The notes under the pieces are model-generated. The model saw only the letters and a list, made by a program, of their open reading frames with translations. It was not told the origin of the DNA and made no database searches. The position numbers and the translations under genes were made by a program. DNA of 64,000 bases from Gemmatimonadota bacterium (lineage in GTDB: Bacteria > Gemmatimonadota > Gemmatimonadetes > Gemmatimonadales > Gemmatimonadaceae): contig VHBO01000002.1 of NCBI GenBank assembly GCA_016871895.1, positions 62,001 through 126,000 of the forward strand, in the 5' to 3' direction. This document shows positions 36,346-39,227 of this stretch, one piece after another; position 1 is the first letter of the stretch, and each line of letters begins with the position of its first letter.

Positions 36346-37641
36346 TCAGGAGCGGATCGCCACCACGAGATCCATCACATTGGTGCCCGTCACGCGCGCG
36401 GGCAGCAGCGCCCCGGCGGCGGCGAGCACGGGATGGGCGTCGCATCGGCGGAGGGCGTCCCGGCGCGTCGTCGGCGTGAGGGGCGTGCCCTCGTCGACGA
36501 TCGCCCCCGCCGCGTCGGTGGGTCCATCACGTCCGTCGGTGCCCGCCGCCAACAACGTCACCGGGACCTTCCACTCGGCGAACTCCTCTGCCGCTGCGAG
36601 GGCGAGGTGTTGGCAGCGTCCACCGAGGCCGTGCGGCTCGGGGAGCCGGACGGACGTCTCCCCGCCCCAGAGGAGGACCGTCCCCGGAGCCGCCCGCCGG
36701 GCGAGGTGCGCCACCAGATGGCCCGCCGACGCGGCGTCGCCGTGCAACGGCGCGGGTGCGGCGATGACGTCCCAGCCTCGCTCGCGCGCGGCGGCCGCCG
36801 CGCCGGCCAGCGCGAGCGCGTTGCCGCGGACCACCGGCTCCGCCACGGCGCTGAAGGCGGGATCGTCGGGCTTCGGGGTCTCACGGGCGGCGTCGGCGCG
36901 CATCGCGCCGAGGGTCGAGGCGATCGAGAGCGGGAGCCGCGTCGCGATCCCCGCCTCACGGAGCACGCGTTCGATCTGCGCCGCGGTGAGCGGGTCGGGG
37001 GAGATGGGGCCCGAGCCGATCATCGCCGGATCCTCGTTGGGGACGTCGGCGAGGAGGATGGGGATGACCTGCGCGTGTCGGAGCGCGACGCCGAGTCGCC
37101 CGGCGCCCCAGCGGGAGAAGCGCTTCCGCACCGCGTTGATGCGGCCGATGGGGACGCCGGCCCCGAGGAGGAGCGCGTGCAGCGCGGCGAGGTCGACGGC
37201 GCGGATGCCTTCGATCGGCGCGCCGATGAGCGCGGAGGTGCCGCCGGAGATCAGGACGAGGACGACGTCGTCCGGGGCGATGCGCTGCGTGAGACGGTCG
37301 AGCGCCGCGGCCGCCGCGAGGGAACGGGGCCCCGGGACGGGGTGATCGCCGGCGAGGTGATGCATCGGCTCGACGCGATCACCGACGTTGGGATCGGCCC
37401 CGATCACGAGCCCGCCCGCGAGTGGGCGTCGCTCGTCCGCGCACCAGTCGCGTGCGGCCTCCGCCATCGCCGGCGCCGCTTTGCCGACGGCGATGATCCA
37501 GTGGGGTCGGGTCGCGAGGGTCTCGAGGGTCGCGGCGTGCGCCGCGAGTCCCTCGAGGACGACCTGCGCGGGGTCAGCGGCGGCGACGGCCGCTTCGTAG
37601 AGCGCGAGCGCGAGGGCTCGGCGCTCCGCGCGGTCCGTCAC
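36346..37641 (-). CDS. Glycerate 2-kinase (DUF4147/MOFRL family)
   Basis: A 431-residue protein of the glycerate kinase type II family. The N-terminal DUF4147 domain shows WIIAVGKAAPAMAEAA, DHPVPGPRSLAAA, LVLISGGTSALI and IGRINAVRKRFSRWGAGRL; the C-terminal MOFRL domain has LLWGGETSVRLP, GGRCQHLALAAA and LAAGTDGRDGPTDAAGA. It should phosphorylate glycerate at C2, linking serine or glyoxylate breakdown to glycolysis. The GTG at 37641 overlaps the peroxiredoxin stop by four bases. Longer starts upstream would overlap the peroxiredoxin frame. Confidence 0.9.
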   Translation of the reverse strand: MTDRAERRALALALYEAAVAAADPAQVVLEGLAAHAATLETLATRPHWIIAVGKAAPAMAEAARDWCADERRPLAGGLVIGADPNVGDRVEPMHHLAGDHPVPGPRSLAAAAALDRLTQRIAPDDVVLVLISGGTSALIGAPIEGIRAVDLAALHALLLGAGVPIGRINAVRKRFSRWGAGRLGVALRHAQVIPILLADVPNEDPAMIGSGPISPDPLTAAQIERVLREAGIATRLPLSIASTLGAMRADAARETPKPDDPAFSAVAEPVVRGNALALAGAAAAARERGWDVIAAPAPLHGDAASAGHLVAHLARRAAPGTVLLWGGETSVRLPEPHGLGGRCQHLALAAAEEFAEWKVPVTLLAAGTDGRDGPTDAAGAIVDEGTPLTPTTRRDALRRCDAHPVLAAAGALLPARVTGTNVMDLVVAIRS

Positions 37642-38201
37642 CGCCCGGAGGCCCGCCGCACCGCCGTTCCGAGTTCCGTGTACGCTTCGGCGGAGAGCTC
37701 GCGGAACGGTCGCATGATGTGCGCGATCCGCCCGTCCGGCCCGACGACGAAGACGACGCGCCGGTAGAGGTTGAGCGCGGGGAACTTCACGTCGTACGCC
37801 GAGGCGAGGGAGCCGGCGGTGTCGCTGACGAAGGTGACGGGGAAGTTCTTCTCCGCTGCCCACGACTGCTGGTCTGCGGTGCCGTCGGTGCTGATCGCGA
37901 GAACGGTGACGCCGGAGCCGTTGTTGAAGAGCGTGGCGTACTGATCACGGTACGCCTCCATTTGCGCCGTTCAGCCACCGGTCCTCACCTTCGGGAAGAA
38001 GGCGAGGACGACGGTCTGGCCGCGCAGGGCGCGGAGGTTCACGGGGGTGGGGCGGATCCCGTTCTTCGTGGAGGCCGGCAGCGTGAAGTCGGGGGCGAGA
38101 TCACCGACCTTGGGGCCACCGTCGGTCGCGCCCTGTGCACGCACCGCCGCCGGCAAGGCGAGGAGCGCGAGGGCGCTGACGAGGGAGAGTGGACGTCGCA
38201 T
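37638..38201 (-). CDS. Candidate selenocysteine-containing peroxiredoxin (in-frame TGA)
   Basis: Exported AhpC/TSA-type peroxiredoxin of 187 residues if the TGA at 37971-37973 is read as selenocysteine (residue 77). Signal peptide: residues 1-22, ending VRA. Fold landmarks: PKVGDLAPDFTLP, VVLAFFPKVRTGG, then the TGA codon, then TAQMEAYRDQY, LAISTDG, FVSDTAGSLASAYDV and VFVVGPDGRIAHI. In the family the codon after RTGG or RTPG is the peroxidatic cysteine, so the TGA sits exactly at the catalytic residue. There is no other cysteine in the mature part, so no resolving thiol. The same frame continues without break. A hairpin of the SECIS type follows. A nonsense mutation (TGC to TGA) or sequencing error is the alternative. 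It leads the operon with the kinase, aguBA and queCE. Confidence 0.72.
37935..37956 (-). promoter_or_regulatory. Candidate bacterial SECIS hairpin
   Basis: In the mRNA a perfect 7-bp stem (GGCGUAC/GUACGCC) closes an 8-base loop, CGUGAUCA. The stem starts 14 nt after the UGA, and the apical loop starts 21 nt after it, with a G in its first two bases. These values fall within the published ranges for bacterial SECIS elements (loop 16-37 nt from the UGA). A bulged U like that of E. coli fdhF is not seen. Confidence 0.55.
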
Positions 38202-38339: not shown

Positions 38340-39216
38340 TCAGTCCGCGACGAGTCGGAGCGCCGCCGGCACGGATGCGACCTCGACCGTCGCCGACGTG
38401 GCCTGCCGGAGTTCCCCGTCCGCCTCGATGAGCGGCGGCGCAGGGAAGGTCAGGGTGACGCGTGCGGCGCGCTGATGCGTCACCGCCGAGTGGGTGAGGT
38501 GCGTCCCGCGCAGCGCCCGCAGCAGCACCCGGAGGCGCGCGAGGCTGGAAAGATCCTCAACGACGACGACATCGAGGGCCGCATCGTCGATGCGGGCGTC
38601 GGGGGCGATCCGGAACGCGCCGCCGAAGTGTGCGCCGTTCGCCGCGACCGCGAGGAGGCGCCGCCGCATCGGTGCACTCTTCACGCCGATCAGGAGCCCC
38701 TCGTAGCGGAAGAGCTCCGAGAGCGCCGCTGCCACATAGCGCGGGGCGACGGGAAGGGGCCGGAGGCGTTCGGCGGCGGCGTTGCAGGCGACGTCGAACC
38801 CCATCCCCGCGACGTTGAGGAACCAGATGTCATCGACACGACCCATATCGACGCGGCGTTCCGTGACCCCGCCGTCGGCGAGGCGTTCCGCGAGGGTGCG
38901 CGCGTCACGGGGGTGCGTGCCGAGGTTCTTCGCGAAGTCGTTCCCTGTGCCAGCGGCGAGGATCGCGAGGCGCGCCGGGCTCCCCGCGCGGGCGAGCGGG
39001 ACGGCGCAGTTGGACCAGGTGCCGTCCCCTCCGGCGACCACGAGCGTCTCGATGCCGTCGGCGATCGCCTCGGCGACCAACCGCGCCTCGTCGCCGGCGT
39101 GACGCGTGGCACGGACATCGGTGAAACCACACCGGGCGAACGCGGCACGGATGCCGACGATCGCCCGGGCGCCGCGTCCGGAGCCGGACGCGGGATTGTA
39201 CAGGACGCGGACGGCC

Positions 39217-39227
<11 letters not shown>
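38340..39227 (-). CDS. Diacylglycerol kinase-like lipid kinase (YegS/DagK family)
   Basis: A 295-residue cytoplasmic lipid kinase. LYNPASGSGRGAR opens the ATP-binding domain, GGDGTWSN is the catalytic glycine-rich loop, and LAAGTGNDFAKNLG is the following signature; the C-terminal beta-sandwich ends with IEADGELR. It should phosphorylate diacylglycerol, sphingosine-like or other lipids; which one is unknown. The GTG start at 39227 lies inside the last codons of the aconitase gene, so both are probably on one mRNA. Confidence 0.88.

Follow-up and report, generated by a model that had tools for sequence, protein, structure and literature searches.

Closest described peroxiredoxins

Selenocysteine (Sec) peroxiredoxins of the TxxU type are listed as a bacterial selenoprotein family in two reviews (PMC9312934, PMC13188914) and for the Sargasso Sea (PMC1088965); in bacteria the SECIS element that accompanies such genes is described as a stem-loop directly downstream of the UGA with a small apical loop containing a G (PMC1088965). 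The main text of the two reviews leaves Gemmatimonadota unmentioned, a literature search by title and abstract for selenoprotein or selenocysteine together with Gemmatimonad returned nothing on topic, and no mention of a Gemmatimonadota Sec-peroxiredoxin group was found in NCBIfam.

The gene considered here lies in a window of 64,000 nucleotides, the whole stretch of DNA that was analysed, from a Gemmatimonadota bacterium. Its product shares with the TxxU proteins (COG1225 Bcp / PF00578) an AhpC-TSA domain, Sec within a PxxxTxxU motif, and a bacterial SECIS hairpin just after the UGA; it differs from the listed members in its predicted export, in its 1-Sec form and in its phylum. It is a new member of the TxxU peroxiredoxin family. 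An earlier interpretation made from the letters of the window, the sequence-only reading, thought that the exported Gemmatimonadota form looked undescribed; this holds for the phylum and the subfamily, however the TxxU family itself was already listed.

PrxU (NF040737), known from Eubacterium acidaminophilum (Sohling 2001), belongs to the same superfamily and also has a Sec active site, however its cut-off is 270 bits and the window protein, which reaches 47.8, is not a member. None of the NCBIfam models scores above its cut-off with the window protein; the model closest in kind, Bcp/PrxQ (NF006960), gives 61 bits against an equivalog cut-off of 140. The best sequence matches are PrxQ/Bcp proteins and AhpE of M. 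tuberculosis (Rv2238c), at about 25% identity. The structure model (pLDDT 90) has a peroxiredoxin fold of the Bcp/PrxQ-like kind, and Foldseek finds Bcp4 and related structures closest, with a probability of 1.00 to Bcp4. Bcp/PrxQ and AhpE have Cys where the window protein has Sec; AhpE is a 1-Cys peroxiredoxin, and neither protein is known to carry an export signal.

The gene and its in-frame TGA

The Sec-peroxiredoxin (Sec-Prx) coding sequence occupies 37638-38201 on the minus strand, with its ATG at 38201-38199 and its TGA stop at 37640-37638, and specifies 187 residues including Sec77. The sequence-only reading had given these coordinates correctly and left the strand unstated. It had also joined two apparently separate open frames into one gene through a single TGA at 37971-37973, which is codon 77 on the minus strand and appears as TCA on the plus strand; the domain matches bear this out, as Pfam AhpC-TSA scores 97.1 bits (cut-off 26) over residues 32-161, on both sides of the TGA, and Pfam Redoxin likewise matches across both halves. 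The peptides that flank the codon, ...FFPKVRTGG before and TAQMEAYRDQY... after, are exactly as claimed. The alignment of homologues defines the active-site motif as PKVRTGGU (37971-37994, minus strand), the U being that of P70-x-x-x-T74-x-x-U77; codon 77 is the peroxidatic position of PxxxTxxC, where the TGA had been placed from the outset. With R148 the window protein has the complete PxxxTxxU motif and the invariant Arg. The mature protein had been said to contain no other Cys; a second Cys was sought in the whole window protein and none is present. A signal peptide is predicted at about residues 1-22 (MRRPLSLVSALALLALPAAVRA; 38136-38201, minus strand) from the hydrophobic N-terminus, with a cleavage site placed by eye, and this stretch has low pLDDT in the structure model.

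The downstream gene (36346-37641, minus strand) is glycerate 2-kinase-like, a name given by resemblance, and is a conserved neighbour in 21 loci; its GTG start overlaps the Sec-Prx stop (GTGA), and this overlap suggests that the two genes form one transcript. The upstream gene (38340-39227, minus strand), diacylglycerol/lipid kinase-like by resemblance, lies outside the selenoprotein and serves as a marker of conserved synteny. Between 34300 and 41946 of the window the order, again by resemblance, is aconitase, lipid kinase, Sec-Prx, glycerate kinase, N-carbamoylputrescine amidase and agmatine deiminase; parts of this order are found again around Sec-Prx in about 20 further loci.

Codon 77 across the Gemmatimonadota

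A scan of 84,980 species yielded 80 loci. Apart from one distant Bcp of cyanobacterial origin, all of these are titled as Gemmatimonadota groups or as unnamed bacteria. The scan loci and genomes from the same phylum together provide 108 distinct Gemmatimonadota homologues, of which 87 have TGA at codon 77 and 21 a Cys codon; a 22nd Cys match is the cyanobacterial outgroup and stands outside the 21. The Cys/TGA exchange anticipated at residue 77 is thus present in the phylum, however the supposed change from TGC to TGA is too simple a description, since TGA is the common form. Scattered further stops in relatives, which would have spoken for decay, are absent: no internal stop other than the TGA of codon 77 was found in the 108 homologues. 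A homologue in another species (L024) is 91% identical, full-length and has the same TGA.

The TGA might be no more than a nonsense codon, produced by sequencing or assembly error or belonging to a decaying pseudogene: the window's genome is a draft of 129 contigs, and a truncated product would be without the catalytic residue. However, the 87 distinct homologues that share the TGA reach down to 42% identity, the protein after it is conserved, and the TGA form is linked to Sec machinery (see below). Because the codon is shared by so many homologues, many from independent assemblies, chance is excluded and a fault in the assembly is most improbable; error or decay as a whole retains a very small probability. 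The gene almost certainly encodes a selenoprotein, which from its sequence would be an exported peroxiredoxin with a single Sec; each refuting test that was run came out in favour of a selenoprotein over a decaying gene, as had been argued from the window itself.

The mature part contains no further Cys in 84 of the 87 Sec forms and in all Cys forms, and a clearly hydrophobic N-terminus is seen in 74 of the 87 Sec homologues. Along with the single Sec and the predicted signal peptide of the window protein, this survey upholds the proposed 1-Sec, putatively exported form. Some genomes carry both kinds of the peroxiredoxin, Sec-form and Cys-form, in tandem (L116, L118, L119, L120, L124, L125, L127 in genus g8, and L110 in G183).

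When the Sec and Cys labels are placed on a tree built with the SECIS-coded columns removed, six changes are counted, by a quick method and with many weak branches. Two Cys groups of the window's genus are placed among Sec forms, and three genomes of that genus (G129, a single-contig assembly, G087 and G073) have the Cys form and are without selA; the Cys forms in this genus look like losses tied to the loss of selA/selC. The tree reads most naturally as a loss of Sec decoding after which Cys took the place of Sec, though the tree alone does not fix the direction; species that lose the Sec machinery would then retain the enzyme with Cys in place of Sec.

SECIS hairpin

The hairpin GGCGUAC-CGUGAUCA-GUACGCC (37935-37956, minus strand) consists of a 7-bp stem and an 8-nt loop whose second position is G. 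Counted from the UGA, pairing begins at nt 15 and the loop at nt 22. In lying directly after the UGA and having a small apical loop with a G it agrees with the description of bacterial SECIS elements. Single-sequence folding is unremarkable, being no better than shuffles (z -0.27 and -0.68), and was dropped as proof of a SECIS as not significant, codon and covariation tests being used instead. The SECIS-like hairpin that had been noticed behind the TGA is present, and support for it is comparative.

Synonymous sites in the hairpin region are nearly invariant and the element is not kept in Cys homologues. Among the 87 Sec genes, Gln+3 is CAA in 77 and Asp+9 GAT in 86, against frequencies of 10% and 34% in the rest of those genes; Arg+8 is CGT in 82, compared with 9% in the rest of those genes and 4 of 21 Cys genes. 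Over 67 distinct sequences the stem is paired in 96.4% of cells, with compensatory changes on both sides in three of the seven stem pairs (GC to CG, GC to AU); the pairing score is reached by 0 of 500 shuffles and is lost when the partner is slid. In 17 of the 67 sequences the outermost pair does not form. Measured against synonymous recodings, the hairpin region is more stable in Sec genes, with a mean z of -1.8 as opposed to -0.4 in Cys genes. In one subgroup (L043, L129, L131, L132, L133) a change from Met to His at +4 occurs together with a loop change from U to G (CGU to CGG).

Selenocysteine machinery

The source genome is a draft of 2.28 Mb, 96% complete. It contains tRNA-Sec (selC; 77 bits, anticodon tca) and protein matches to SelA (513 bits), SelB (322 bits) and SelD (337 bits), so that all four sel genes whose presence the sequence-only reading had made decisive were found. 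The selD gene is split by a contig break, and its tail lies directly before selC. It shows an in-frame TGA near the N-terminal active site (...CAG-U-ASKMGPG...; C38:3-752, L018 at about 719-725, and C58:6-164, L001 and L021); because of this TGA of its own, SelD is probably a selenoprotein as well.

Co-occurrence was scored by hand-compiled table across 298 sampled Gemmatimonadota genomes, the scored genomes being those among the best matches listed. At the threshold used tRNA-Sec is detected in 224 of the 298, a few of these being weak matches to other tRNAs. Among the matches listed, 102 scored genomes have the TGA form: 94 have tRNA-Sec, and selA is present in all of the remaining 8, the TGA-form genomes in which it was searched for in this tally. 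The Cys form alone occurs in 30 genomes among the matches listed, with neither tRNA-Sec nor selA in 28 and both in 2. The association of the TGA form with Sec machinery has a Fisher p of about 1e-26, a value that ignores relatedness. Weak Rfam matches to tRNA-Sec in five Cys-only genomes were rejected, as ARAGORN identifies them as tRNA-Ser or tRNA-Leu. A point against the selenoprotein reading is that tRNA-Sec goes undetected in the 8 TGA-form genomes scored by selA, namely G175, G031, G237, G168, G158 (a single contig), G160, G260 and G123; a relaxed rescan and a search with the window's selC as DNA query found no tRNA-Sec in any of them, nor did ARAGORN and Rfam near selA in four of them. 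The tRNA-Sec of these eight genomes may be unusual.

Reassignment of UGA occurs in some bacteria, and codon 77 could by that precedent be read as another amino acid through a code changed genome-wide, or as Trp or Arg by ordinary readthrough. The window gene and 45 of the 108 homologues terminate in TGA, however, Cys is the only alternative at codon 77 and never Trp, Arg or Gly, and a hairpin of the Sec type is present with the machinery; either kind of decoding is hardly credible here. Genome content and covariation instead support Sec decoding, in which the UGA would be read by SelB and tRNA-Sec under the direction of the hairpin within the following codons.

Predicted function and candidate reductant

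The predicted signal peptide would export the chain to the envelope. By analogy with the family, Sec77, which sits where the active-site helix begins, in a pocket with P70, T74 and the invariant R148, would attack hydroperoxides and form a selenenic acid; a role as peroxidase is quite probable. Other main roles for the selenoprotein would be those of a thiol oxidoreductase, a sensor, or an enzyme for organic/lipid hydroperoxides only. Such roles gain some footing from the catalytic Pro of PxxxTxxC: all 21 Cys homologues retain it, but 51 of the 87 Sec homologues have Tyr, Phe or another residue there, so that their pocket is not the usual peroxidase one; however, the window protein retains the full PxxxTxxU and the invariant Arg, and for it they are unlikely. 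The replacements (position -7 from Sec; P70 of the window, 37992-37994) fall mostly in one large clade, hence represent few independent events.

As an enzyme with no second Cys, the proposed peroxidase could form no internal bond, and an outside thiol would therefore have to reduce Sec77. In Caulobacter an envelope peroxide pathway is composed of ScsB, TlpA and PprX (Cho 2012, as summarised in PMC5403849). The arrangement suggested here resembles it in combining an envelope peroxiredoxin, a TlpA-like thioredoxin and a DsbD/CcdA-type membrane electron carrier; it differs in that the peroxidase contains Sec, the membrane protein is short and CcdA-like, and the link is one of gene neighbourhood and presence. 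In 17 of 54 Sec loci with enough flank, two genes follow the Sec gene, one for a TlpA-like thioredoxin that bears a signal peptide and one for a CcdA/DsbD_TM protein; being convergent, they form no operon with it. In L053, L061, L066, L073, L086, L098 and others the pair lies some 350-1700 nt beyond the Sec codon. In the window's genome a homologous TlpA/CcdA pair lies on contig C5 (G000:C5, L150:1495-2752), not adjacent to Sec-Prx. The leading candidate for the reductant, with about an even chance on this genomic evidence, is a periplasmic TlpA-like thioredoxin, which would be fed with electrons by a CcdA/DsbD-like membrane protein.

Significance

Throughout the phylum the gene is found again with its UGA and its RNA signal where the selenium machinery is present, which places selenium use in the large and poorly cultured Gemmatimonadota. 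Annotation that takes UGA as a stop likely splits or truncates genes of this kind. A broader reading, tentative and slightly less probable than its opposite, is that these proteins form a phylum-wide undescribed subfamily of envelope 1-Sec peroxiredoxins with dedicated CcdA-TlpA reduction, in which one large branch is without the catalytic Pro, a loss affordable only by Sec enzymes, and in which Sec decoding has repeatedly been lost and Sec replaced by Cys. Natural Sec/Cys switches are numerous in the family, tandem copies within one genome included, and in them the gains from Sec and the costs of its loss in an envelope peroxidase can be tested.
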